NCBI RefSeq assembly: GCF_004684205.1
Contig: NZ_SRIO01000004.1
Location: forward strand, 124,001 to 188,000
Direction of reading: 5' to 3'
From: Candidatus Macondimonas diazotrophica
GTDB lineage: Bacteria; Pseudomonadota; Gammaproteobacteria; UBA5335
DNA: 64,000 bases
Positions 1,346 through 54,039 of the stretch are shown piece after piece. The position numbers and the translations under genes are program-made. The number at the start of each line of letters is the position of its first letter. Positions within the stretch are counted from its first letter, which is position 1. Below the pieces are notes generated by a model. The model was not told where the DNA came from. It saw only the letters and a program-made list of their open reading frames with translations, and did not search any database.

Positions 1346-3499
1346 ATGTCAACGATCGAGCCCGTTACCTCCGTCGAGGAAGCTGAAGCGCCATCCGAGC
1401 CGACCGATCTGACCCGGGCGGACCTGTATCTCAATCGCCATATCAGCCTGCTCGCATTCAACGAGCGGGTCCTGGCGCAAGCGCGCGATCCCGGCGTGCC
1501 CCTGCTGGAGCGGCTCAAGTTTCTGTGCATCACCAGCTCCAACCTCGACGAATTCTTCGAAACCCGCGTGGCGGGTCTCAAGGAACTGCAGGCGTACGGT
1601 GCCTGGCAGGTCGATGTCGACAACCGCTCCCCCGCTGAAACGCTCCGGCTGATCACGGCCAGGGCGCATGAACTGGTCGTGGAGCAATACCGGGTCCTGA
1701 ACGAGGAATTGCTGCCCGCCCTGGCCCATGAGCAGATTCACTTGATTGCTCCGAAGCGCTGGACCAAGGCACAACGCGCGTGGGTGCGGCGCCATTTCGA
1801 GGAAGAGGTTTCGCCGCTGCTCAGCCCTATCGGCCTGGATCCAGCCCACCCGTTTCCCCGGATTCTGAACAAGAGCCTCAATTTCATTCTTTCGCTGGAA
1901 GGCAAGGATGCCTTCGGTCGCAACAGCGCGCTGGCGGTGCTGCAGGCGCCGCGGATCTTGCCGCGTGTGATTGCGATGCCGCAGGAGGTGGCGCCCAAAG
2001 GGCATTGTTTCGTCCTGCTCTCCGAGATTATCCGTACCCACGCCGAGGACCTCTTTCCCGGCATGCAGGTGAAGGGTTTCTATCCATTCCGGCTGACGCG
2101 CAACAGCGAGATGTTCGTGGACGAGGAAGAGGTCGACGACCTGCTGCGGGCCATGGAGGGCGAGCTCTCTTCACGCCGCTATGGCGATGAAGTACGGCTG
2201 GAGGTGGCACGGGAGTGCCCGACGGAAATGGTCGAGTTGCTGCTCAAGCAATTCGAACTGGAACACTCGGATGTCTATTCGGTGGATGGGCCGGTCAATC
2301 TGAGCCGCCTGATGGCCATGATCGATCAGGTGGAACGACCTGAGCTGAAATATCCCCCGTTCACGCCGGGATTGCCGCGCGAACTCGTCGGGGCTTCGGG
2401 CAGTGCCATGGGCAATCTGTTCGAAGTGATCCGCAAGGGCGATGTGCTGCTGCACCAGCCGTTTCAGTCCTTCATGCCGGTGGTCGAGTTTCTGCGTCAG
2501 GCAAGCCAGGATCCCCAGGTGCTGGCGATCCGCATGACCTTGTACCGAACCGGTGCCGATTCGGCCATCGTCGACCTGCTGCGTCAGGCGGCCATTCGAG
2601 GCAAGGAAGTGACGGTGGTGGTCGAGCTGCGTGCACGCTTCGACGAGGAGGCCAACATCAGTCTGGCGACCCGTCTGCAGGAGGCGGGCGCGCATGTGGT
2701 GTACGGTGTGGTGGGCTACAAGACCCACGCCAAGCTCACTTGGGTCGTGCGCCGGGAAGGGCGGCAGCTGCGCCACTATATGCACTTGGGTACGGGGAAC
2801 TACCATGCCCGTACGGCAAGGCAGTACACGGACTTCGGCCTGTTGACCTGCAATCCCAAGATCGCCGAGGACGTCAATCACGTCTTCCTGCAGCTGACCA
2901 GCCTGGGCCGCGTCCCGCGCTTGCAACGGCTGTTGCAATCGCCATTCTCGCTGGTTTCCGGGCTGCTCGAGCGCATCCACCGCGAGATCGATCATCACCG
3001 CGCCGGGCGCCCGGCGGCGATTCGTTTCAAGGTCAACGGCGTGACGGATCGCGAAGTGATTCAGGCGCTCTACGAAGCCTCCCAGGCGGGCGTACCGATC
3101 GATCTGATCGTGCGCGGCATGTGCTGCCTGCGTCCTGGGGTGCCGGGCGTGTCCGAAACGATCCGTGTGCGCTCCATTGTGGGTCGTTTTCTGGAGCATC
3201 CGCGCGTCTATTACTTCGAGAACGGCGGGAAACCTGAGGTGTATTGCGCCAGCGCCGATCTGATGGAGCGCAATCTGCATCGGCGTATCGAAGTCGCCTT
3301 CCCGGTGCTGGATCCGGCGTTGCGCCAGCGCGTGATCGAAGAGGCATTGGACTATTACCTGCGGGACAACATGCAAAGTTGGCTATTGCAGGACGATGGA
3401 ACTTACATCCGCGCCGATGTCGGTGATGAGGCGCCGTTCAGCGCCCAGGGGGCTTTGCTCAAAGCCCTGGCCAGCGAGGGCACGATCGGAATCGGTTGA
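1346..3499 (+). CDS. ppk1: Polyphosphate kinase 1
   Basis: Reversibly polymerises the terminal phosphate of ATP into inorganic polyphosphate. The 717-aa length fits PPK1. Visible are the N-terminal helical domain (LNRHISLLAFNERVLAQA, CITSSNLDEFFETRVAG), the phosphotransfer region with IRMTLYRTG, THAKLTWVVRR and the conserved histidine segment YMHLGTGNYHARTARQYTDFGLLT, and a complete C-terminal PLD-like domain (DLMERNLHRRIEVAFPV). ATG 1346 is chosen because the frame upstream of it is not protein-like; no clear Shine-Dalgarno is present. It converges on ppx with only 15 bp between the stops, so synthesis and breakdown genes are adjacent but transcribed towards each other. Confidence 0.97.
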   Translation: MSTIEPVTSVEEAEAPSEPTDLTRADLYLNRHISLLAFNERVLAQARDPGVPLLERLKFLCITSSNLDEFFETRVAGLKELQAYGAWQVDVDNRSPAETLRLITARAHELVVEQYRVLNEELLPALAHEQIHLIAPKRWTKAQRAWVRRHFEEEVSPLLSPIGLDPAHPFPRILNKSLNFILSLEGKDAFGRNSALAVLQAPRILPRVIAMPQEVAPKGHCFVLLSEIIRTHAEDLFPGMQVKGFYPFRLTRNSEMFVDEEEVDDLLRAMEGELSSRRYGDEVRLEVARECPTEMVELLLKQFELEHSDVYSVDGPVNLSRLMAMIDQVERPELKYPPFTPGLPRELVGASGSAMGNLFEVIRKGDVLLHQPFQSFMPVVEFLRQASQDPQVLAIRMTLYRTGADSAIVDLLRQAAIRGKEVTVVVELRARFDEEANISLATRLQEAGAHVVYGVVGYKTHAKLTWVVRREGRQLRHYMHLGTGNYHARTARQYTDFGLLTCNPKIAEDVNHVFLQLTSLGRVPRLQRLLQSPFSLVSGLLERIHREIDHHRAGRPAAIRFKVNGVTDREVIQALYEASQAGVPIDLIVRGMCCLRPGVPGVSETIRVRSIVGRFLEHPRVYYFENGGKPEVYCASADLMERNLHRRIEVAFPVLDPALRQRVIEEALDYYLRDNMQSWLLQDDGTYIRADVGDEAPFSAQGALLKALASEGTIGIG

Positions 3500-3514
3500 G
3501 GGGAACCCGGGCGT

Positions 3515-5059
3515 CTAGTCGGTTTCGCCAAACGAAAGCGCGAATCCGGCTCGCTCCAGCAGGGCTTGTTCTTCCAGCAGATCAGCGTGCATGAGTGGGC
3601 GCAGCGTCAGGCCTTTCTTGGGAAAGTCCATGTGCAGGCCATCGGTCGTGGCAGTCAGCTGGATCGGCGGGGCGGGCTCGGAACCGCGGGCGCGATGGAG
3701 CAGCACCGCGAGCCGCAACACGATGGTCAGACGCAGCGCCGTCAGCCGCTGCTCGGGGGGCAGAACATTGAATTCGCGGCGGATGATCTTGCGCCGATGA
3801 AAGCGGACCAGCAGGCTGACCAGCGTCTGTGTGTTGCGGGAAAAGCCGGCCAGATCGCCGTTGGCCAATAGATAATGGCCATGCTTGTGATAACCGCTGT
3901 GGGATATCGCCAGACCGATTTCATGCAGCATGGCAGCCCAGCGCAAGGCGTCGATGTCTGGGGTTTGCCCGAGCGCCCATTGTTCACGCAGTTGGTCCAG
4001 GAAGCCCAGCGCGGTGGTGCAGACACGGCTGGCCTGGCCGCGGTCGGCATGGTAGAGCTGCGAGAGAGCCTCGGCCGTATGGTTGCAGACATCCTGGCGT
4101 CCCCGGCGTCCCGCGGCCAGTTCGTCAAGCAGGCCTTCGCGCAAGGCGCCGTCGCAGGGAAGCATGCGCTCGATTCCCAGCGCCGCGAACGCCGCGCTCA
4201 GAATGACGGCGCCGCCGGCAAACACCTGCTGACGTTCCGCCGCCAGATCCGGCAGGTTGAGCCGGTCCACTCGACCCGCGCGGATCAGGCGATCGCGTAG
4301 ATCCGCAAGGCCGGCCGCATCGATGTCCGGTGTGTTGCGCAGCGTCTGCACCATCGCCGCGACCGCTCGGATCGAGCCGGAGGTGCCGATGGCTTCATGC
4401 CACCCGGCAGCGCGGAAGTTCGCGGCGACCGGCTGGAACTCGAGGCGTGCGGCGGTTTCGGCTGCCTGCCAGCGCTTGGCCGTGATGCGCCCGTCGCGGA
4501 AGAATCGCTGGCTGTAGGTGATGCAGCCCATATGCAGGCTTTCCATGCAGATGGGGTGAATGCCGTCTCCCAGTACGATTTCGCTGCTGCCCCCGCCGAT
4601 GTCGAAGACCAGTCGCCGGTTCGCCGGGGGGCCCAGGGTGAAGCTCACTCCCCGGTAGATCAGGCGCGCCTCTTCCTGACCAGAAATGACTTCGATCGGA
4701 TGGCCGAGCACCTGCCCGGCCTGTTCGAGGAAGTCGACGGCACGGAAACCGCGGCGCAACGTGTAGGTGCCGACGGCGCGGATGTGCTGCGGCGGGATGT
4801 CACGCAGGCGGTCGCCGAATCGGCGCAGTGTCTCCAGCGCCCGCTGCTGGGCCTCGGGCGTGATGGTTCCGTCGGCCCGTAGCCCGGTTCCGAGACGCAC
4901 CATTTCCCGCAGCCGGTCGATGACCTGGATATGTTGGCCCAGACGGCGGGCGAGAATGAGGTGAAAGCTGTTCGAACCCAGATCCAGGGCCGCGAAATGT
5001 CCCGCGGGATCCCCATTTGGCGGGGCGGTAATGCCTTGAGGTAGCGGCTGTGGCTCCAT
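3515..5059 (-). CDS. ppx: Exopolyphosphatase / Ppx-GppA phosphatase
   Basis: Removes terminal phosphates from polyphosphate (and possibly pppGpp). The 514-aa length matches Ppx. The actin-like ATPase fold is visible as phosphate loop 1 AALDLGSNSFHLILAR (about residues 23-38) and loop 2 VFDIGGGSSEIVLG (about 160). The C-terminal HD-like helical domain contains WAAMLHEIGLAISHSGYHKHGHYLL. The open frame continues upstream through the tRNA-Ser gene, so the true start must be downstream of the tRNA; ATG 5059 (MEPQPLPQG) fits the family N-terminus. It is convergent with ppk1. Confidence 0.95.
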   Translation of the reverse strand: MEPQPLPQGITAPPNGDPAGHFAALDLGSNSFHLILARRLGQHIQVIDRLREMVRLGTGLRADGTITPEAQQRALETLRRFGDRLRDIPPQHIRAVGTYTLRRGFRAVDFLEQAGQVLGHPIEVISGQEEARLIYRGVSFTLGPPANRRLVFDIGGGSSEIVLGDGIHPICMESLHMGCITYSQRFFRDGRITAKRWQAAETAARLEFQPVAANFRAAGWHEAIGTSGSIRAVAAMVQTLRNTPDIDAAGLADLRDRLIRAGRVDRLNLPDLAAERQQVFAGGAVILSAAFAALGIERMLPCDGALREGLLDELAAGRRGRQDVCNHTAEALSQLYHADRGQASRVCTTALGFLDQLREQWALGQTPDIDALRWAAMLHEIGLAISHSGYHKHGHYLLANGDLAGFSRNTQTLVSLLVRFHRRKIIRREFNVLPPEQRLTALRLTIVLRLAVLLHRARGSEPAPPIQLTATTDGLHMDFPKKGLTLRPLMHADLLEEQALLERAGFALSFGETD

Positions 5060-5356: not shown

Positions 5357-6028
5357 ATGTCCACGCCTCGACCCCATGTTGTCCACGACACTTCGGTTCG
5401 TGTCGCTGATAACAAGCTGATTCGTAACACCTATACCCTGCTCGCCATGACGCTGTTGTTCAGCGCGGGAACGGCTGGGCTATCGATGATGCTCAACCTG
5501 CCGCATCCCGGCGTGCTGATTACCCTGGTTGGCTATTTCGGGCTGCTCTTTCTGGTGACCCGCTTGCGCAACAGCGCGTGGGGGCTGGCCGCCGTCTTCG
5601 GTCTCACGGGTTTTATGGGGCTGACCCTGGGCCCGATCCTGCAGGCGTATCTGACCATGCTTCCGAATGGCAGCCAGGTCGTCATGATGGCCATGGGCGG
5701 CACGGGCGCCGTATTCCTGGGCCTGTCGGGCTATGCGCTCAGCTCGCGGCGCGACTTCAGCTTCATGGGCGGCTTTCTGACGGCGGGCATCCTGGTCGCG
5801 TTCCTGGCGGGCCTGGGTGCGATCTTTTTCCAGCTTCCCGCATTGTCACTGGGCGTCTCGGCGATGTTCGTCCTGCTGATGTCGGGGCTCATTCTGTATG
5901 AAACCAGCAATCTGGTACACGGGCATGAGACCAATTACATCATGGCCACGGTGACCCTGTACGTCGCCATCTACAACCTGTTCCTGAGCCTGCTGCAACT
6001 GCTGGGCTTTGCGGGTAGCGACGACTAG
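5357..6028 (+). CDS. Bax inhibitor-1 / YccA-YbhL family integral membrane protein
   Basis: A 223-aa protein with about seven hydrophobic segments, from LIRNTYTLLAMTLLFSAGTAGLSM to YVAIYNLFLSLLQLLGFAGSDD. The family signatures SSRRDFSFMGGFLTAG, ILYETSNLVHGHETNYI and the C-terminal LYVAIYNLFLSLLQLLG place it in the BI-1/TMBIM family; E. coli YccA modulates the FtsH protease. An alternative ATG lies 9 nt upstream at 5348, but GAGGG at 5343-5347 is correctly spaced only for ATG 5357. A rho-independent terminator follows directly. Confidence 0.93.
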   Translation: MSTPRPHVVHDTSVRVADNKLIRNTYTLLAMTLLFSAGTAGLSMMLNLPHPGVLITLVGYFGLLFLVTRLRNSAWGLAAVFGLTGFMGLTLGPILQAYLTMLPNGSQVVMMAMGGTGAVFLGLSGYALSSRRDFSFMGGFLTAGILVAFLAGLGAIFFQLPALSLGVSAMFVLLMSGLILYETSNLVHGHETNYIMATVTLYVAIYNLFLSLLQLLGFAGSDD

Positions 6029-45347: not shown

Positions 45348-47630
45348 ATGGCAACAGAATGCGGTGCACGTCTCGCGCATATCCATGGGGATTGCTTCGG
45401 TATCCGGGAGCATCTCCTCGATGAGCATCTGCGGGACGTCGCCCGCCGCGCGGCCGACCATGCGGAGGCCTTCGGCGGACAGGATTGGGCGTATCTGGCC
45501 GGTCTGTGGCACGACCTCGGAAAGTATCGGCCGGGATTTCAGCGTTATCTGCGCGCGGCCAGCGGTACCGAGGCTGAGAACGCCCATATCGAGGGCGGCG
45601 CCGGGCGGGTGTCGCACTCCACCGCCGGTGCCTTGCTCGCCTGCGAGCGTTTCGGCACGCCCGGCCGGGTGCTGGCCTATCTGATCGCGAGCCACCATGC
45701 CGGACTGTACGACTGGCATTCCGATTCAAGCAGCCTGGAAATGCGGCTTGGCTCGGACGCCGGTCGTACCGAGCTCGCCGAAGCGTTGGCGGCGGCGGCA
45801 CCGCCAATTCTCGACCATGGCGACTTCGCCCCGGATCTGCGCACCGTGCCAGGCGGTTCGGCTGGCTTCGCGCTGTGGCTGCGGATGCTGTTCTCGGCGC
45901 TGGTGGATGCCGACTTCCTCGACACCGAAGCCTTCATGGATGAAGGCAAGGCCGCCGCGCGCGGCGCCTGGCCGGATTTGGCGACGCTGCGCGGGGCGTT
46001 CGATGCCCACATGGCCCGGCTCGCGGCGGATGCGCAGAACACGCCCGTCAACCGCCTGCGCGCCCGCATCCTCGCCCAGTGCCGCGACAAGGCACCAGAA
46101 AAGCCTGGCATCTTCTCGCTCACCGTGCCCACCGGCGGGGGCAAGACGCTGGCCTCGATGGCCTTCGCGCTCGACCACGCGCTCGCGCACGGCCAGCGGC
46201 GGATCATCTACGTCATCCCCTACACCAGCATCATCGAGCAGACTGCGGACGTGTTCCGCGGCATCTTCGGCGAGGCTGTCGTCGAGCACCATAGCAACGC
46301 CGAATCCGACCCTGGACGCGAGAACCTGCGCAGCCGCCTGGCCTGCGAGAACTGGGATGCACCCATCGTCGTCACCACCAGCGTCCAGTTTTTCGAATCG
46401 CTGTTCGCCGCGCACACCAGCCGCTGCCGTAAGCTGCACAACATCGTGGGTAGCGTGGTGGTGCTCGATGAGGCACAACTGCTGCCGCCAGAGTTTTTGA
46501 AGCCGATCCTCGGCGTGCTGAACCTGCTCACCCGCCACTACGGCGTGACCGTGGTGCTCAGCACCGCCACGCAGCCGGCACTCGCCCGGCAGGAATACTT
46601 CGATCCGCAAAAGAGCATCGCCGGGCTCGATGACGTGCGCGAGTTGATGCAGGGCGGCCCGCATGTCGCAATACCGGACGAGCTGTACCGGGACCTGCAG
46701 CGCGTGCGCGTGCGCCTGCCGGCCAACTGGCAAGCGTGCACCGCGTGGGAGGATCTGGCTGCCGAACTTGTAGCGCACGAAAGCGTCCTGGCGATCGTCA
46801 ATACCCGCCGTCACGCCGCTGTGCTGCACGCCGTGCTGCCCAAGGACACGCTGCACCTGTCGGCGCTGATGTGCGGCGCGCATCGGGCGGACGTCATCGC
46901 CACCATCAAGGCGCGGCTCAAGGCCGGCGACCCTACGCGCGTGGTCAGCACCCAGCTCGTCGAGGCCGGCGTCGATCTCGACTTCCCAGTCGTCTATAGG
47001 GCACTGGCCGGACTCGACTCTATCGCCCAAGCCGCCGGGCGCTGCAACCGCGAAGGCCGGTTGCCGGAGTTAGGCGAAGTGGTGGTGTTCGTGCCGCCCG
47101 ACGCGGCGCCGCCGGGCCTGCTCGCCAAGGGCGAGGGCGCCTGCCGCAGCGTGCTGCACGGCCACGCCGGCGATCCGCTCGACCGCACGCTGTTCGAGCG
47201 CTACTTCCGCCAGCTCTATTACCAGTGCGAGCTGGACAAGCACGGCATCGAGAAGCTGCTCACCGTGGATGGCAAGACGCTGGCGGTGAACTTCCGCACC
47301 GCCGCCGAAAAATTCCGCCTGATCGACGAAGCCGATCAGGCCAGCGTCGTCGTCCTCTACCGCGGGCCGGACGGGCAGGACGCCACCGTTGATCAGCGCC
47401 TCGCGCAACTGCGCCGCGACGGCAGCGCGCGCTGGTTGCTGCGCGCCTTGCAGCGCTACACCGTGAGCATTCCCCAGCGCGACGCCGAGCGTTTGCTGGC
47501 GCAGGGCGATATTGAGGAGTTGCTGCCGGGCCTCTTCGTGCAGGTGAGCGATGTGCTTTACCACCCGGTGCTGGGGCTGTTGACCGGCGATGTTGCGGCA
47601 CCCACAAGCGCGTGGATCGTTGCTGGCTGA
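45348..47630 (+). CDS. cas3: Type I-C CRISPR-associated helicase/nuclease Cas3
   Basis: Effector nuclease recruited by Cascade to unwind and degrade target DNA. 760 aa with HD nuclease and SF2 helicase fused. HD motifs: YLAGLWHDLGKYRPGFQRYL (about residue 45) and VSHSTAGALLA, later SHHAGLYDW. Helicase: Walker A LTVPTGGGKTLASMAFAL (about 258), VVTTSVQFFESLF, DEAQ box VVVLDEAQLLPPEFLKP (about 370), VVLSTATQPAL, and VVSTQLVEAGVDLDFPVVYRALAGLDSIAQAAGRCNREG. First gene of the cas locus, ATG 45348. The stop is followed by a 349-bp insert before cas5c. Confidence 0.96.
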   Translation: MATECGARLAHIHGDCFGIREHLLDEHLRDVARRAADHAEAFGGQDWAYLAGLWHDLGKYRPGFQRYLRAASGTEAENAHIEGGAGRVSHSTAGALLACERFGTPGRVLAYLIASHHAGLYDWHSDSSSLEMRLGSDAGRTELAEALAAAAPPILDHGDFAPDLRTVPGGSAGFALWLRMLFSALVDADFLDTEAFMDEGKAAARGAWPDLATLRGAFDAHMARLAADAQNTPVNRLRARILAQCRDKAPEKPGIFSLTVPTGGGKTLASMAFALDHALAHGQRRIIYVIPYTSIIEQTADVFRGIFGEAVVEHHSNAESDPGRENLRSRLACENWDAPIVVTTSVQFFESLFAAHTSRCRKLHNIVGSVVVLDEAQLLPPEFLKPILGVLNLLTRHYGVTVVLSTATQPALARQEYFDPQKSIAGLDDVRELMQGGPHVAIPDELYRDLQRVRVRLPANWQACTAWEDLAAELVAHESVLAIVNTRRHAAVLHAVLPKDTLHLSALMCGAHRADVIATIKARLKAGDPTRVVSTQLVEAGVDLDFPVVYRALAGLDSIAQAAGRCNREGRLPELGEVVVFVPPDAAPPGLLAKGEGACRSVLHGHAGDPLDRTLFERYFRQLYYQCELDKHGIEKLLTVDGKTLAVNFRTAAEKFRLIDEADQASVVVLYRGPDGQDATVDQRLAQLRRDGSARWLLRALQRYTVSIPQRDAERLLAQGDIEELLPGLFVQVSDVLYHPVLGLLTGDVAAPTSAWIVAG

Positions 47631-47685: not shown

Positions 47686-47757
47686 GGGGGGCTTGCGCCC
47701 CCCATTAAGAACCGTATTTAGCCGATCTTGGTTTCAATCCGCGTCCAAGCTAGGACG
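47686..47757 (-). ncRNA. Degenerate mini-CRISPR in the cas operon: candidate CreR/CreA-type guide RNA
   Basis: Read on the minus strand. A 5-bp hairpin CGTCC-TAGCTT-GGACG (47757-47742) is followed at once by CGGATTGAAAC (47741-47731), identical to the last 11 nt of the array repeat, where the same 11 nt also follow the repeat hairpin. Eleven nt is the 5' handle length Cas5c leaves. A guide-like stretch from 47730 (CAAGATCGG...) leads to a second hairpin GGGGGGC-GCAA-GCCCCCC (47703-47686). The guide matches the target at 47770-47788 at 16 of 19 positions. Expected to load into type I-C Cascade and repress, not to trigger cutting. A minus-strand promoter (TAATAT at 47768-47763) is possible. Not known from direct evidence; inferred. 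Confidence 0.7.
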
Positions 47758-47769
47758 ACAGCATATTAC

Positions 47770-47791
47770 CTGTATTGAACCGATCTTGGAA
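47770..47791 (-). promoter_or_regulatory. Predicted target of the in-operon guide, with TTC PAM
   Basis: On the minus strand TTC (47791-47789) is followed by CAAGATCGG (47788-47780), identical to guide positions 1-9. Positions 11, 13-17 and 19 also match. Mismatches are at 10, 12 and 18; 12 and 18 belong to the every-sixth positions not read by Cascade. On the plus strand this covers TTGAAC at 47775-47780 and abuts an AT-rich patch (47790-47800), a plausible promoter for the downstream cas5c-cas8c-cas7 genes. Confidence 0.65.
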
Positions 47792-47834
47792 ATAAATTAA
47801 TGTTGCGCCGTCCCTTCGGCTTGGGCGGTGCGGT

Positions 47835-47957
47835 ATGGAATGGATGGTTGGCTTCTTGCGCGAACTGAGGCTACTCCTGACCGAGCTGCCGCCAGACCGC
47901 TTCTATGTGCTTTGCGCACTCGCCTTGGCTGTAACGTTCGTATGGTGGTTTCGGTGA
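47835..47957 (+). CDS. Putative 40-aa single-helix membrane peptide upstream of cas5c
   Basis: A short frame MEWMVGFLRELRLLLTELPP followed by DRFYVLCALALAVTFVWWFR. The last 20 residues form one hydrophobic helix ending in an aromatic/basic tail, as in small toxic or membrane-tethered peptides. It stops 22 bp before the cas5c ATG. The upstream ribosome site is weak (GGGCGGTGCGG). Lying just downstream of the predicted guide target, it could be a CreT-like toxin whose promoter is repressed by the guide, or just leader sequence. A 22-codon frame from ATG 47800 is an alternative. Confidence 0.4.
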   Translation: MEWMVGFLRELRLLLTELPPDRFYVLCALALAVTFVWWFR

Positions 47958-47979: not shown

Positions 47980-48645
47980 ATGAATACCTACTGCCTCGAA
48001 GTCCGCGGCGATTTCGCCTGCTTCACCCGCCCGGAGATGAAGGTCGAGCGCGTGAGTTACGACCTCATCACGCCCTCCTCGGCGCGGGCTGTGTTCGAGG
48101 CCATTTTGTGGAAGCCGGCCATTCGCTGGCGGGTCCGGCGCATCGAGTTGCTCACCCCCATCCGCTGGATCAACCTGCGCCGCAACGAGGTGGCGGGTGT
48201 GGTCTCCACGCGCAACGTGGAGACCGCCATGCGCGCCGGTAGCGGCGATCTCGGGCTCTACATAGAGGACGAGCGCCAGCAGCGCGCCGGTCTTTTTCTG
48301 CGCGACGTGGCCTACCGCCTGCACGCGGAAATGACCCTGCAGCCCAACGCGCCGCCGGGCGAGAAGCTCGTCAAATACCGCGAGATGTTCGAGCGCCGCG
48401 CCGGCAGGGGCCAGTGCGTGAACCAGCCTTACCTCGGCTGCCGGGAGTTCGCGGCCGCGTTCCGGCTGGTGTCGGACCCGGCCGCCGAACCCGCGCCCAT
48501 CGCTGAGACGCGCGATCTGGGCTTCATGCTGCACGACCTCGACTTCCTCAATCCGGCCGATCCGGTGCCGCGCTTTTTCCGCGCGCAGATGACGGACGGC
48601 GTGGTGGCGGTGCCGGACTTCGATGACGCGGAGGTGTGCGCATGA
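47980..48645 (+). CDS. cas5c: Type I-C Cascade subunit Cas5c (crRNA-processing endonuclease)
   Basis: In type I-C, Cas5c replaces Cas6: it cuts precrRNA 3' of the repeat stem and stays on the 11-nt 5' handle. 221 aa. Family features: N-terminal YCLEVRGDFACFTRPEMKVERVSYDLITPSSARAVFEAILWKPAIRWRVRRIELLTPIRWINLRRNEV, then RDVAYRLHAEMTL, GQCVNQPYLGCREFAAAF, and LGFMLHDLDF. ATG 47980 follows GGGAGAG. Its stop overlaps the cas8c start (ATGA). Confidence 0.95.
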   Translation: MNTYCLEVRGDFACFTRPEMKVERVSYDLITPSSARAVFEAILWKPAIRWRVRRIELLTPIRWINLRRNEVAGVVSTRNVETAMRAGSGDLGLYIEDERQQRAGLFLRDVAYRLHAEMTLQPNAPPGEKLVKYREMFERRAGRGQCVNQPYLGCREFAAAFRLVSDPAAEPAPIAETRDLGFMLHDLDFLNPADPVPRFFRAQMTDGVVAVPDFDDAEVCA

Positions 48646-50423
48646 TTCTGCAGGCGCTCGCCGACTACTACCGGCGCAAACAGGCCGACCCTGACCCGGC
48701 CGGGCGCCTTCCGGCCTACGGCTTCGAGGAGAAGGAGATTCCCTTCATCCTCGAAATCGACGGCGAGGGCCGGCTGGTACAGATCCTCGACACTCGCAGC
48801 GGTGAGGGCAAAAAGAAAACCGCCCAGCGCTTTCTGGTGCCCAAGGCAGTCAAAAAAACCTCCGGCGTCGCGGCCAATCTGCTCTGGGACACCGCCGAGT
48901 ACGTGCTCGGCATTGACACCCGCGGCAAGCCGGAGCGGGTGGCCGCGCAGCACGCCGCCTTTCGCGCCCGCATCGACGCGCTGCCGGCCGAGGCACAGGC
49001 GGATGCGGGCATTGTCGCCGTGCGGGCGTTTCTCGATGGCATCGACATCGATGCACTTGCTACCAGTCCCGTGTGGGAGGAGATCAAGGTCACTAACCCG
49101 TTGCTGAGCCTGCGCCGGCACGGCGATGTGGAACTGGTCTGCCAGCGTCCGGCGGTGACCGTGTTGGCAGGGGACGAGCCGGAGGACGAGGCCACCGTGA
49201 TCTGCCTCGTCAGTGGCGAGCAGGCCGCGCCGGAGCGCCTGCACGCTGCCATCAAGGGCGTGTGGGGTGCGCAAAGCTCGGGCGCCAACATCGTTTCCTT
49301 CAACCTCGACGCCTTCAATTCCTACGGCAAGAGCCAGGGCGCCAATGCGCCAGTGGGCAAGGCCGCGGCCTTTGCCTACACCACTGCCCTCAATCACCTA
49401 CTGGCCAAGGGATCGTCGCAGCGCATCCAGGTGGGCGACACCTCGACGGTATTCTGGGCCGAAGTGCCGCACGAACTCGAAACTGCCTTGCCGGACCTGT
49501 TCGGCGAGCCGCCCAAGGACGACCCGGACCGTGGCACCGACGCACTGCGCGCGCTCTACCGTGCCGTCGAGACCGGGCGTTTCGCCGTGGGCAGCGACGA
49601 CACCCGCTTTTACGTGCTGGGTCTTGCACCTAACGCGGCGCGTATTGCCGTGCGCTTCTGGGACACCGCGCCGGCCATCGAACTGGCGCGGCGCATCCGG
49701 CGGCACTTCGACGACATCGCCGTGGCGCGTTCGCCGCGCGACCCGGAGCACCTGTCGCTGTTCCGTCTGCTTACCGCGACCGCCGTGCAGGGCAAGGCCG
49801 ACAACATCCCGCCCAATCTCGGCGGCGAGGTGATGCGCGCCATCCTCGAAGGCCTGCCCTATCCCGCCACCCTGCTCAACGCCGCCGTACAGCGCTGCCG
49901 CGCCGAGCAGCAGGTGAGCTATCCGCGAGCCGCCGCCATCAAGGGCTGGCTCAACCGAGACCACCGGCGCCGCCATTCCGACCTGCCCCTCGACCACAGC
50001 GAGTTCAAGGAGAACCTCGACATGGATCAAACCGACGTGCCCTATCGGCTCGGCCGAATGTTCGCCGTACTGGAGCGTATTCAAGAAGAAGCAGCGAAGC
50101 CGAGGAAGCTCAACAGCACCATTCGCGATCGGTACTTCGGCGCCGCGTCCACTGCGCCGGTTGCCGTGTTCATGACGCTATTGCGTTTGAAAGTGAGCCA
50201 TGCCAAGCAGCTCGCGCCGGAATACGCAGGCTACTTCGAACGCCTCTTGGGGGAGATATGCGGGACCGTCGCCGAACCGAAGGTCAGCGACTTTCCGCGC
50301 CAACTGTCCCTGCCCGATCAAGGCCGCTTCGCGCTCGGCTATTACCACCAGCGCCAGAGCTTTTTCACCAAACGCGCCGCCGAATCCACAGAAAGTGAAG
50401 CCACTCAGGGAGAACCCGCATGA
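48642..50423 (+). CDS. cas8c: Type I-C Cascade large subunit Cas8c (Csd1)
   Basis: Large subunit that recognises the PAM and recruits Cas3. 593 aa, normal for Csd1. Recognised from [130 protein letters not shown], and the C-terminal [17 protein letters not shown]...[13 protein letters not shown]. In type I-C a shorter small subunit (Cas11c) is made by internal initiation within this gene; internal starts exist near the 3' end but I cannot choose one. Overlaps cas5c and cas7 by 4 nt each. Confidence 0.95.
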
Positions 50424-51301
50424 GCCTTGCCCATCGTTATGACTTCGTCCTGCTGTTCGACGTGAAGGACGGCAACCCCAATGGCGACCCGGACGCCGGC
50501 AACCTGCCGCGTTTGGATGCCGAAACCGGCCATGGTCTGGTGACTGACGTGGCGCTCAAGCGCAAGGTGCGCAATTTCGTCGGGCTGGTGAACGGCGAGC
50601 AGCCGCCGTACGAGATTTACGTGAAGGAAAAGGCCATCCTCAACAACCAGCACAAGCGGGCGTATATCGGCATCGGCCGGGAAGACCTGCTCGTCGGCGA
50701 CGACAAAAAGCGCAAGGGCGGCGATGCCGTGGATGACGCCCGCACCTGGATGTGCCGCAACTTCTTCGACGTGCGCACCTTCGGCGCCGTGATGTCCACC
50801 GGCATCAACTGCGGCCAGGTGCGCGGGCCGATCCAGCTCACCTTCGCGCGCTCGGTCGATCCCATCGTCGCTTCGGAACATTCCATCACGCGCATGGCCG
50901 TCGCCACCGAGGCGGAAGCCGAAAAGCAGGAAGGCGACAACCGCACCATGGGCCGCAAGCACACCGTGCCCTATGGCCTGTACCGGGCACACGGCTTCGT
51001 GTCGGCTTTTCTCGCCAAGCAGACCGGCTTTTCCGATGACGATCTCACGCTGTTCTGGCAGGCGCTGTGCCAGATGTTCGAGCACGACCGCTCCGCCGCG
51101 CGCGGCGAGATGACCACGCGCGGGCTGTACGTGTTCCAGCACGATTCGGAGCTTGGCAATGCGCCCGCGCATGCGCTGTTCGAGCGGGTGCAGGTGCAGC
51201 GCAATATGGGGGTGGAAGTACCGCGCTCGTTTGCGGATTATGCGGTGAGCGTCGCGGCGGACGACCTGCCGAATGGCGTGACCCTGATGCAGCCTTGTTG
51301 A
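50420..51301 (+). CDS. cas7: Type I-C Cascade backbone subunit Cas7 (Csd2)
   Basis: Forms the helical backbone along the crRNA spacer and inserts a thumb at every sixth base. 293 aa. The Csd2 motifs [114 protein letters not shown] are all present. ATG 50420 overlaps the cas8c stop. hicB follows after 23 bp. Confidence 0.96.
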
Positions 51302-51324: not shown

Positions 51325-51531
51325 ATGAGCGAACTTCACGTCATTGTCGAACAGGCCCCGGAGGGCGGCTACCTCGCCCGCGCCGTCGGCGCGGACATCT
51401 TCACCGAGGCCGACGACCTGGAGCAGTTGCGCGCCCAGGTGCGGGACGCGGTGCGCTGTCATTTAGAGCCCGGCCAATGCCCGAGCCTGATCCGCCTGCA
51501 CATCTCGCGCGAGGAGGTCATCGCCGCGTGA
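51325..51531 (+). CDS. hicB: HicB-like antitoxin inside the cas operon
   Basis: A 68-aa protein with the HicB partial RNase-H-like fold: MSELHVIVEQAPEGGYLARAVGADIFTEADDLEQLRAQVRDAVRCHLE, the E-x-GGY-x-A and TEADDLEEL pattern of short HicB proteins. No C-terminal DNA-binding domain follows, so this short type may not autoregulate by itself. The stop overlaps the hicA start codon (GTGA). It lies 23 bp after cas7. HicB normally masks the HicA active site. Confidence 0.87.
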   Translation: MSELHVIVEQAPEGGYLARAVGADIFTEADDLEQLRAQVRDAVRCHLEPGQCPSLIRLHISREEVIAA

Positions 51532-51770
51532 GACTGCCGCGTGACCTCACCGGTGCGGAACTGGTCCGGCGCCTGGCCAGGCTCGGGTATGGCATCACGC
51601 GCCAGACCGGCAACCACATGCGCCCAACCAGCCAACTGCGCGGTGAACATCACGTCCCGGTGCCACGCCACGATCCGCTGCGCGTGGGAACCCTTGCGGC
51701 CGTCCTGGACGCCGTCGCTGCTCATCACGGCCTCGACCGGGATGAGCTGCTGTCGCGCCTCGTGGAGTGA
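51528..51770 (+). CDS. hicA: HicA-like mRNA interferase toxin inside the cas operon
   Basis: An 80-aa HicA (YcfA-type, dsRBD-like fold). RLPRDLTGAELVRRLARLGYGITRQTGNHMRPTSQLRGEHHVPVPRHDPLRVGTLAAVLDAVAAHHGLDRDELLSRL has the family order helix - strand - G-x-H - strand - PRH - PLRVGTL. The catalytic His is expected in TGNHMR (canonical GSH, here GNH). GTG 51528 overlaps the hicB stop. The stop is 3 nt before the cas4 GTG, so toxin and cas4 are translationally close. It cleaves translated mRNAs when HicB is lost (family knowledge). Confidence 0.9.
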   Translation: MRLPRDLTGAELVRRLARLGYGITRQTGNHMRPTSQLRGEHHVPVPRHDPLRVGTLAAVLDAVAAHHGLDRDELLSRLVE

Positions 51771-51773
51771 GCT

Positions 51774-52403
51774 GTGCGCGAGGACGGCGACCCCATTCCT
51801 CTCTCCGCCCTCCAGCACTGGTGCTACTGCCCGCGCCAGTGCGGGTTGATTCATCTTGAGCAGGCGTTCGCCGACAACCTCCACACCGCGCGCGGCAACG
51901 CGGTGCATCGGCTGGTGGACACGCCCGGCTACGAGATGCAGGCTGGAGTGAAGGTGGAGCGCGCGCTGCCACTGTGGTCCGATCAGTTTGGCCTGATCGG
52001 CAAGGCCGATCTGGTCGAGTTCCACTCCAACGGACGCATTTTTCCGGTCGAGTTCAAGCACGGCCGGCGGCGCCAGAAGCGCCACGACGACGTGCAGCTC
52101 GCCGCCCAGGCGCTGTGCCTTGAAGAGATGCTCGGCCGGCCGGTCACGCACGGTGCGATCTACCACGCCTCGAGCCGCCGCCGGCGCGAGGTGGAGATCA
52201 CCCCGGCGCTGCGGGCGCTGGTGGTCGAGACCGCCGGGGCAATCCGCACGATGCTGGCGAGCGGCCGCCTGCCGCCACCGGTGAACGACGCGCGCTGCCG
52301 TGAGTGCTCGCTGATCGAGATCTGCCAACCGGCGGCGCTGGCGGGGCAGAACGTGCAACGCGAACTGCGTGCCGAGCTGTTCAGCGCCACCGACGAAGGG
52401 TAG
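51774..52403 (+). CDS. cas4: CRISPR adaptation nuclease Cas4
   Basis: RecB-like [4Fe-4S] exonuclease that with Cas1-Cas2 trims prespacers at the PAM. 209 aa. Cluster ligands: HWCYCPRQCGL at the N-terminus and RCRECSLIEICQP at the C-terminus. Nuclease residues: RGNAVHRLV (His), LIGKADLVEFHSNG (Asp), PVEFKHGRRRQKRHDDVQLAAQALCLEEM (Glu, Lys, Gln). GTG 51774 lies 3 nt after the hicA stop and no earlier start is possible without overlapping hicA. Confidence 0.95.
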   Translation: MREDGDPIPLSALQHWCYCPRQCGLIHLEQAFADNLHTARGNAVHRLVDTPGYEMQAGVKVERALPLWSDQFGLIGKADLVEFHSNGRIFPVEFKHGRRRQKRHDDVQLAAQALCLEEMLGRPVTHGAIYHASSRRRREVEITPALRALVVETAGAIRTMLASGRLPPPVNDARCRECSLIEICQPAALAGQNVQRELRAELFSATDEG

Positions 52404-52408
52404 CCGCC

Positions 52409-53443
52409 GTGTACACCCTGCAAAACACGCTCTACGTGATGACGCCAAACGCCTACGCGCACCTGGAGAACAACACGCTGCGCATCGACGTGGAGCGCGA
52501 AAAGCGCCTGCAGGTGCCGCTGCATCACCTGGGCAGCCTGGTCTGCTTCGGCAACGTGCTGGTTTCGCCGGCACTGATGCACCGCATGGCCGACGAGGGC
52601 AAATCGGTGGTACTGCTGGACGGCAGCGGCCGCTTCAAGGCGCGGCTCGAAGGGCCGGTGTCGGGCAACATCCTGCTGCGTCAGGCACACCATCGCAGCG
52701 CGGCGGATGGTGCGTTTGCACTCGAATTTGCCCGCGCCGTCATCGCCGGCAAGCTCAGGAACAGCCGCAGCCTGCTGCTGCGCGCGGCGCGTGAGGCTGC
52801 GGATGCCGCAGAGCAGGCGCAGCTTACGCGCGCGGCGGACAACCTCGCCGCGTCGCTGCGCGCCCTGGCGCAAGCACGCGATCTCGACACCCTGCGCGGC
52901 GTGGAGGGCGAAGCTGCGCGCGGCTATTTCGCGGCGCTGAATCTGGTCGTCAAACCGCAGGCGCGCGAGCACTTCGCGCTCAACGGCCGCACCCGCCGGC
53001 CGCCGCTCGATCGCTTCAACGCGCTGCTGTCGTTCCTCTATTCCATGCTGATGAACGACTGCCGCTCGGCGCTGGAAACTGTCGGCCTTGATCCCCAACT
53101 CGGCTATCTGCACGCGGTGCGCCCCGGCCGCGCCGCGCTGGCGCTGGACCTGCAGGAGGAATTTCGCGCCGTGCTGGCTGATCGACTGGCGCTCACCCTC
53201 ATCAACCGCGGCCAGCTCGGTCCCAGGGATTTTGATGAACGCGAAGGTGGCGCGGTGATGCTGCGCGACAACGGCCGCCGCGCCGTCGTCACCGCCTGGC
53301 AGGAGCGCAAGCAGGAGGAAATCACCCACCCGCTGCTTGGCATCAAGGTGTCGATCGGCATCGTCCCCTTCGTGCAGGCGCGGCTGATGGCGCGCACCGT
53401 GCGTGGCGAAATGGACGGCTATCTGCCGTACCTGCCGAAATAG
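52409..53443 (+). CDS. cas1: CRISPR integrase Cas1 (type I-C)
   Basis: Spacer integrase. 344 aa. N-terminal beta domain YTLQNTLYVMTPNAYAHLENNTLRIDVEREKRLQVPLHHLGSLVCFGNVLVSPALM. The catalytic triad regions are present: Glu in LRGVEGEAARGYFAALN, His in GYLHAVRPGRAALALDLQEEFR, and Asp just after. All three ligands look intact. GTG 52409 is 5 nt after the cas4 stop and gives the standard N-terminus. Confidence 0.96.
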   Translation: MYTLQNTLYVMTPNAYAHLENNTLRIDVEREKRLQVPLHHLGSLVCFGNVLVSPALMHRMADEGKSVVLLDGSGRFKARLEGPVSGNILLRQAHHRSAADGAFALEFARAVIAGKLRNSRSLLLRAAREAADAAEQAQLTRAADNLAASLRALAQARDLDTLRGVEGEAARGYFAALNLVVKPQAREHFALNGRTRRPPLDRFNALLSFLYSMLMNDCRSALETVGLDPQLGYLHAVRPGRAALALDLQEEFRAVLADRLALTLINRGQLGPRDFDEREGGAVMLRDNGRRAVVTAWQERKQEEITHPLLGIKVSIGIVPFVQARLMARTVRGEMDGYLPYLPK

Positions 53444-53452
53444 GAACTCATC

Positions 53453-53743
53453 ATGTTGGTCGTCGTCACCTACGATGTTTCTACCGAAACCGCCGCTGGC
53501 CGACGGCGCCTGCGCCGCGTGGCCAAAGTCTGCGAGAGCACGGGCCAGCGGGTGCAGAAGTCGGTGTTCGAATGTCAAGTCAACGAGATGCAGATGGAAC
53601 AGCTCGAACGCGCGCTGCTCGCCGAGATCGACGAGACGGCAGACAACCTACGCTTCTACCGGATCACCGAATCGGCCCACCTGCGGGTGAAGCAGTACGG
53701 CGTGTTCCGGGCGGTGGACTTCGAGGGGCCGTTGGTGATTTGA
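53453..53743 (+). CDS. cas2: CRISPR adaptation protein Cas2
   Basis: Structural partner of Cas1 in spacer integration. 96 aa. Ferredoxin-like fold with [60 protein letters not shown] and the [17 protein letters not shown] strand. The conserved Asp of the first strand is kept. 9 bp after cas1; the CRISPR leader follows. Confidence 0.96.
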
Positions 53744-53928: not shown

Positions 53929-54039
53929 GTATCTCCCGGCTAAAAAGCCGGGAGCGGATTGAAACCGTGACGAAAGACGCATTTACAGCGAGCCATCCGA
54001 GCGTATCTCCCGGCTAAAAAGCCGGGAGCGGTTTTGAAG
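53929..54039 (+). CRISPR. Minimal type I-C CRISPR array: two repeats, one spacer
   Basis: Repeat 1 is 37 nt (53929-53965): GTAT, a 9-bp hairpin CTCCCGGCT-AAAA-AGCCGGGAG, then CGGATTGAAAC. The spacer is 37 nt (53966-54002). Repeat 2 (54003-54039) is identical for 29 nt and then diverges (TTTTGAAGC in place of ATTGAAAC), the usual state of the trailer-end repeat. The 3' handle and length are normal for type I-C. No further copies follow before 54103. Confidence 0.95.

Follow-up and report, generated by a model that had tools for sequence, protein, structure and literature searches.

Background

Within the 64,000-nt stretch of DNA analysed here (the window), the gap between the cas3 and cas5c genes of a type I-C CRISPR-Cas locus holds a degenerate mini-CRISPR whose guide matches a PAM-flanked site in the same gap. 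The question raised by this arrangement is what the guide acts on: the cas genes, another gene in the gap, or nothing at all.

Several kinds of regulatory guide have been described. CreTA modules are CRISPR-regulated toxin-antitoxin RNAs of types I-B and I-F (PMC8501985, PMC9458426, PMC10097628); the haloarchaeal CreA guide pairs with its target at exactly positions 1-5 and 7-11, beside TTC (PMC8501985), and with CreA, Cascade represses without Cas3 cutting (PMC9458426). CrePA modules contain a CRISPR-repressed protein toxin, CreP, which is typically a KilA-N protein acting on cell division (PMC12737573). CreR denotes autorepression of cas genes by a mini-CRISPR and has been described for types I-B, I-E and V-A (PMC13131331). 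The CreTA, CreR and CrePA literature that we covered, incompletely, so that earlier reports of type I-C mini-arrays are possible, contains neither a type I-C example nor a small membrane protein as partner. Here we set the window's module beside those of related loci and argue that it is likely to be a type I-C guard akin to CreTA and CrePA, whose phage-derived small membrane toxin would be silenced by Cascade.

Results and discussion

A mini-CRISPR in the cas3-cas5c gap

The gene order cas3-cas5c-cas8c-cas7-cas4-cas1-cas2, together with a repeat ending in GGATTGAAAC, makes this a complete type I-C locus (Table 1). A search for phage matches to the single canonical spacer found none. The gap of 349 nt between cas3 and cas5c had been described in an earlier note on this DNA as carrying, on the minus strand, a small hairpin, an exact copy of the array repeat's handle, a guide and a second hairpin, and every one of these coordinates was confirmed on the sequence. 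The second hairpin lacks a T-tract and is thus no obvious terminator; a G+C-rich hairpin 3' of the guide is also present in several relatives, e.g. L010, L054 and L085. The handle occurs three times in the 2.8-Mb assembly: in the mini-CRISPR, in the array and in one coding-looking stretch without repeat context. Rfam was uninformative for the gap, its sole match being CRISPR-DR9 at exactly 47759-47731 on the minus strand (17.1 bits, with the gathering score, 45, far above), and RNA folding gave a z-score of -3.37. As in CreTA, whose mini-CRISPR is a degenerate one- or two-repeat element near or within the cas locus, the degenerate repeats around the crRNA-like guide have retained the handle and a hairpin.

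Table 1. Features of the type I-C locus and its mini-CRISPR (window coordinates)
Feature	Position	Strand	Basis or remark
cas3 (HD + helicase)	45348..47630	+	family models
psiR2-like G+C-rich hairpin GGGGGGCGCAAGCCCCCC, strong, last part of the unit	47686..47703	-	
guide CAAGATCGGCTAAATACGGTTCTTAAT, 27 nt	47704..47730	-	
11-nt 5' handle CGGATTGAAAC	47731..47741	-	same as 3' end of array repeat
psiR1 stem-loop CGTCC-TAGCTT-GGACG	47742..47757	-	5-bp hairpin abutting the handle; sequence, fold
putative -10 of guide transcript, TAATAT, just upstream of psiR1	47763..47768	-	sequence; inferred
self-target (protospacer) CAAGATCGGTTCAATACAG	47770..47788	-	matches guide 1-9, 11, 13-17, 19
putative small-ORF promoter TTGAAC-N17-TAATGT, overlapped by target	47775..47803	+	weak consensus; placement backed by relatives
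TTC PAM of self-target	47789..47791	-	sequence
small ORF, 40 aa, MEWMVGFLRELRLLLTELPPDRFYVLCALALAVTFVWWFR, proposed toxin	47835..47957	+	start 43 nt beyond PAM
cas5c (crRNA-processing subunit)	47980..48645	+	family models
cas8c	48636..50423	+	family models
cas7	50420..51301	+	family models
cas4	51774..52403	+	family models
cas1	52304..53443	+	ORF as listed; model match begins at residue 39, true start probably later
cas2	53453..53743	+	family models
canonical CRISPR array, one 38-nt spacer, last repeat degenerate (3' end decayed)	53930..54039	+	

A self-target upstream of a small open reading frame

The guide had also been claimed to match a TTC-flanked site in the gap. It does so with positions 1-9 identical and 16 of 19 positions matching, the mismatches falling at 10, 12 and 18. 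When the gap was shuffled 20,000 times with its dinucleotide composition preserved and the handle taken as given, the chance of a TTC site matching at least nine of the ten guide positions 1-5 and 7-11 was 0.075%. Taken on its own, without other loci, the match is suggestive. A decayed CRISPR remnant that matches its surroundings by chance would explain why the repeats are degenerate, and the single-locus chance of about 0.00075 applies to a site that was picked after reading; the comparison of loci given below bears on this explanation.

The earlier note, right about guide, handle, PAM and self-target, overlooked a 40-codon ORF between the target and cas5c. The target lies 46-65 nt upstream of the start codon of this ORF, and the guide region and the ORF do not overlap. 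As in CreTA, the match is partial and seed-biased (positions 1-5 and 7-11), is flanked by a TTC PAM and falls at the promoter region of a partner gene, with Cascade as the presumed repressor. In the promoter-like patch noted at the target, the '-35' and '-10' elements are weak by consensus, but a TATAAT-like hexamer is found 4-9 nt after the PAM in most relatives of the same layout.

Guided modules in related type I-C loci

A scan of contigs with cas5c, taken from one genome per species, yielded 80 loci. In most of these, less than about 60 nt separates cas3 from cas5c; inserts of about 150-800 nt occur in a minority. Inserts with both a mini-CRISPR and a small ORF were found in L005 (where the frame upstream of the gap stays open), L010, L054, L060, L063, L074 and L076; in the same slot L078 has a mini-CRISPR without the ORF, and L016 the ORF without a guide. 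An HMM of the small protein, run on 369 genomes of the class and on two orders (searches of 369, 311 and 63 genomes), added L085, L086, L087, L092, L095, L096 and L097, all of them guided and adjoining cas5c. The protein family so defined (family 1) was recovered in these searches solely next to cas5c, and among all its ORFs that of L016 alone has no adjacent guide. A census of cas5c in the class and the phylum added L120, L124, L155, L161 and L121, and L030 has a similar module upstream of cas3. Searches of viral contigs for cas5c relatives and of plasmids for the small ORF returned no match. Self-matches with poor handles (L015, L071, L100, L103, L135, L154 and L163) were discounted as chance; in the general scan, 2 hits were obtained with reversed sequences as the null.

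The L030 module (positions 3100-3515 of a Nitrospirota type I-C locus) consists of a mini-CRISPR, a self-target on the opposite strand and an ORF for a very hydrophobic 48-aa protein, with a regulator-like gene adjacent.

Covariation of guides and targets across 22 loci

The earlier note had proposed surveying related type I-C loci for a conserved handle with covarying guide and target, and 22 loci, the window included, display just this: a handle, a guide and a nearby self-target, with guides that differ from locus to locus and each match their own target. The guides vary widely and many branches contribute, despite the kinship of the loci. Compared over 12 nt, the handle agrees fully with that of the array of the same locus for L010, L054 and L078 and differs by one base in L076. 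Over the 22 loci, the mismatch counts at guide positions 1 to 20 are 0, 0, 1, 1, 1, 12, 1, 1, 0, 2, 1, 18, 2, 5, 8, 10, 10, 17, 16 and 19. Positions 1-5 and 7-11 together account for 8 mismatches in 220 cells, against 30 in 44 for positions 6 and 12; singly, position 6 is mismatched in 12 of 22 loci and position 12 in 18, and position 13 in only 2. The probability of such a positional pattern is about 1e-21, a nominal value as the loci are related. Cascade leaves every sixth guide position unread, and the low mismatch at 1-5 and 7-11 set against the high mismatch at 6 and 12 is, to judge from these alignments, the footprint of Cascade reading.

In 20 of the 22 loci the locus's own guide matches a TTC site at 8 or more of the ten positions 1-5 and 7-11, compared with 9 of 462 combinations when guides are swapped between loci; seven swapped guides score 9 or more, every one of them between loci with similar guides. 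The PAM is TTC in 20 of the 22. The other two, L085 and L092, have GTT/GTC with equally good guide matching, and this branch of type I-C may have a different PAM preference.

Loss of matching in close relatives had been named as a test of the guide; the opposite is seen, since in L005, with a cas5c 90% identical to the window's, guide and target have changed together. The ORFs of the two loci are 2 aa apart, and position 3 is A in both guide and target of one locus and G in both of the other; within the first 17 positions, the L005 guide mismatches its target only at 7 and 12 or thereabouts. Between L074 and L076, guide and target have both diverged, and the ORF shows 10 synonymous versus 1 nonsynonymous codon changes. 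These substitutions indicate that guide and target coevolve while the ORF stays conserved.

A chance origin of the match is untenable because of the 22-locus comparison. With covarying guides, mismatches concentrated at 6 and 12 and handles that track the local array, a decayed remnant with a fortuitous self-match is exceedingly improbable as an account of the window.

The small protein and its phage relatives

The structural model of the window protein has two helices, at residues 2-17 and 20-39 (mean pLDDT 77), of which the second is hydrophobic; the 40-aa product is predicted to be a two-helix membrane protein with a single span. Members of family 1 have one hydrophobic span and share the motif E(L/I)R(L/I), after which come a basic residue and, in most, F. 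The codon changes between L074 and L076, the family alignment and the phage profile match given below indicate that the ORF is under purifying selection and conserved as a protein. Herein lies a difference from CreTA, the toxin of which, CreT, is a small RNA acting by tRNA sequestration or similar means: the partner in the window is a conserved small membrane protein. Pfam and NCBIfam searches of the small protein gave no credible family above cut-off, and the KilA-N domain typical of the CrePA toxin was not found in it by Pfam; NCBIfam and PHROG also gave weak hits to single spans in other proteins, which were discounted. Family 1 thus differs from CreP in being short (37-75 aa), membrane-spanning, related to the phage family phrog_6632 and without a Pfam or NCBIfam match above cut-off.

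This phage family, a PHROG of unknown function, was matched by family 1 (E 4e-6 for the L074 protein), and profile comparison of family 1 with the phage members gave a probability of 98% (E 1e-13); by these matches the two families are homologous. In phages of enterobacteria and in Pseudomonas phages, the members are located in lysis or tail regions, and among 5426 E. coli genomes 908 contain related DNA, annotated 'hypothetical protein'. Inspection of phage copies showed no accompanying guide or handle; in several of them a terminator-like hairpin stands immediately upstream instead. In CrePA the partner is a protein toxin of phage origin; the window's ORF has phage homologues, and its product is a putative toxin.

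In Salmonella phage SPN3UB (L168, positions 45559-45693) an unannotated small-ORF homologue lies between the lysozyme and Rz genes, with a terminator-like hairpin just upstream. Less than 1 kb from this homologue lies a gene for KilA-N, the domain that the known toxin of CrePA carries.

Comparable guided modules contain other small membrane ORFs. The proteins of L120 and L124 form a second family, and those of L155, L161 and L030 (the last upstream of cas3) are distinct in sequence, each with a hydrophobic stretch; by their lack of visible similarity, these proteins appear to be unrelated.

The guide is paired with the small ORF

Where the layout is that of the window, the ORF and then cas5c follow downstream of the target, and one might just as well regard the ORF promoter as that of cas5c. 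The function preferred by the earlier note, a CreR-type brake on the cas5c promoter, builds on this position. On such an account the guide would mainly throttle the promoter of cas5c-cas8c-cas7 and sense the supply of crRNA or anti-CRISPRs, and the small ORF would be incidental. The target in the window is indeed upstream of cas5c on the coding strand, as in CreR, where a mini-CRISPR guide of limited match acts upstream of cas genes. The account also draws on two loci with self-targets. L078 has the same guide and target layout without the ORF, and in L121 both mini-CRISPR and self-target are found upstream of cas3.

The relatives fit this account less well. In L086, L087, L095, L096 and L097 the ORF is antiparallel to the cas genes and the mini-CRISPR parallel; even so, the target remains on the upstream side of the ORF, whose inverted promoter drives away from cas5c, and the matching persists. 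A further arrangement, with the promoter first, then ORF, mini-CRISPR and cas5c, is seen in L120, L124, L155 and L161; the targets of L120 and L124 overlie a -35 element, TTGACA, that is accompanied by a properly placed TATACT. Because the pair persists in both orientations to the cas genes, the guide's partner is the small ORF and not a cas promoter, in contrast to CreR, in which the cas genes are the target and a toxin gene is absent. The ORF, under purifying selection as judged from L074 and L076, accompanies guide and target in 20 of the 22 loci, the window included (L078 clearly lacks it and L121 is ambiguous), and most relatives have no gap that could hold a separate cas5c promoter. We therefore regard a mere brake on the cas genes as unlikely in the window, where the ORF stands between target and cas5c.

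The pairing of ORF and guide is not absolute because of L016, where the ORF stands alone, and L078, where guide and target do. In L016 the ORF is intact, guide and target are lost and the promoter region has changed too. Repression in the window may also lower cas5c-cas8c-cas7, and silencing of the ORF and control of the cas genes are not exclusive.

In L078 (positions 5844-6000) the TTC self-target lies close upstream of cas5c, and the only guide mismatches in the first 15 positions are at 6 and 12. This locus is a candidate type I-C CreR and may descend from one that lost the ORF, its guide now acting on the cas genes. L121 (positions 2580-2800) is another type I-C locus, with its mini-CRISPR and self-target between divergent cas5c and cas3; it is possibly a CreR acting on cas3, or the guide possibly acts on an opposite-strand small ORF. 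These would be the CreR-like cases of type I-C, L121 less surely.

A slot shared with toxin-antitoxin genes

In sister loci the cas3-cas5c slot is empty or holds a Phd-PIN pair (PF02604/PF01850) or a HicAB pair (PF05534/PF07927). Phd-PIN was found in L004, L006, L031, L040, L041, L057 and L071 (called with Pfam on the L004 genes and by similarity in the other six), and HicAB in L008 (Pfam). On a cas5c tree of 107 rows the gap content changes at least 23 times, against a minimum of 4. Even the window's own clade, at about 90% identity, comprises guided (window, L005), Phd-PIN (L004, L006) and empty (L007, L117) gaps. That the ORF product is a toxin is suggested mainly by this exchange of the slot with true toxin-antitoxin modules, beside the type of protein and its phage relationship, and the evidence from the exchange is circumstantial.

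Membrane proteins of phages can cause exclusion. The ORF product might accordingly be a helper when Cascade is weak, through phage exclusion at the membrane or as an aid to CRISPR, regulated by Cascade via the guide and not toxic; the L016 ORF, kept without a nearby guide, would suit such a role. Against a helper, the sharing of the slot with protein toxin-antitoxin modules, the several unrelated small membrane ORFs of comparable modules and the silencing architecture are all reminiscent of addiction modules, and we give this reading little credence.

More generally, we lean towards the view that a slot of type I-C loci, mostly that between cas3 and cas5c, has been repeatedly filled with guards, either protein toxin-antitoxins or small membrane proteins silenced by Cascade, several unrelated proteins having been recruited, one of them phage-related.

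Proposed mechanism and comparison with known systems

For the guard proposed here, transcription, processing, Cascade binding, repression and toxicity are inferred from sequence, as follows. A minus-strand transcript starting near 47757 would be cut by Cas5c at psiR1 to give a crRNA-like RNA with a normal handle and the 27-nt guide. Type I-C Cascade carrying this RNA would bind the TTC-flanked site at 47788-47770 in the ORF promoter region, as the match pattern suggests. Since the match does not reach beyond the PAM-proximal part, a block of transcription is expected and not Cas3 cutting; in nearly all loci the match is restricted to the PAM-proximal half, as it is in CreA (PMC9458426). By the comparison of loci, the guide coevolves with the target and follows the small ORF in both orientations to the cas genes. 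The ORF product would be harmful: were Cascade lost, depleted, titrated or blocked by an anti-CRISPR, it would be expressed and the cell stopped or killed. In the window layout, repression may also reach cas5c-cas8c-cas7 and form a secondary CreR-like loop. As a speculation, with a one-spacer array Cascade would often carry the regulatory guide.

The host system, type I-C, makes its crRNAs with Cas5c instead of Cas6, unlike those of CreTA. The proposed module would share with CrePA a crRNA-like guide and a CRISPR effector that repress a protein of phage origin, which would act once the effector is inhibited, and is set apart from CreR by a conserved guide partner that, in the window and most relatives, is a small-protein ORF in either orientation to the cas genes.

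The peptides of type I toxin-antitoxin systems (of the Hok, Ldr and TisB kind) are likewise very small, hydrophobic, single-span and RNA-silenced. There, however, silencing is by antisense on the mRNA, whereas in the window it would act at the DNA level via Cascade: the guide region lies outside the ORF, and the site that it matches is upstream of the start codon.

If the proposed guard is real, CRISPR-repressed toxin modules extend to type I-C, which is among the commonest subtypes, and hydrophobic peptides would join RNA toxins and KilA-N proteins as a third class of toxin in CRISPR-repressed guards, one that is easily testable and has a phage link. Such a module would be a simple sensor of type I-C anti-CRISPR proteins, penalising the cell for a disabled CRISPR defence. 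The loci also provide natural-selection data on how type I-C Cascade would read a target for silencing, with positions 6 and 12 free and 1-5 and 7-11 fixed, and inspection of the content between guide and cas5c offers a comparative route to more guard toxins.

The window locus has, besides, a second and ordinary toxin-antitoxin candidate between cas7 and cas4: an ORF for a HicA-type toxin (PF07927, E 1.6e-8) at window positions 51477-51767 on the plus strand, just upstream of which lies a small ORF without a Pfam match, a possible antitoxin.
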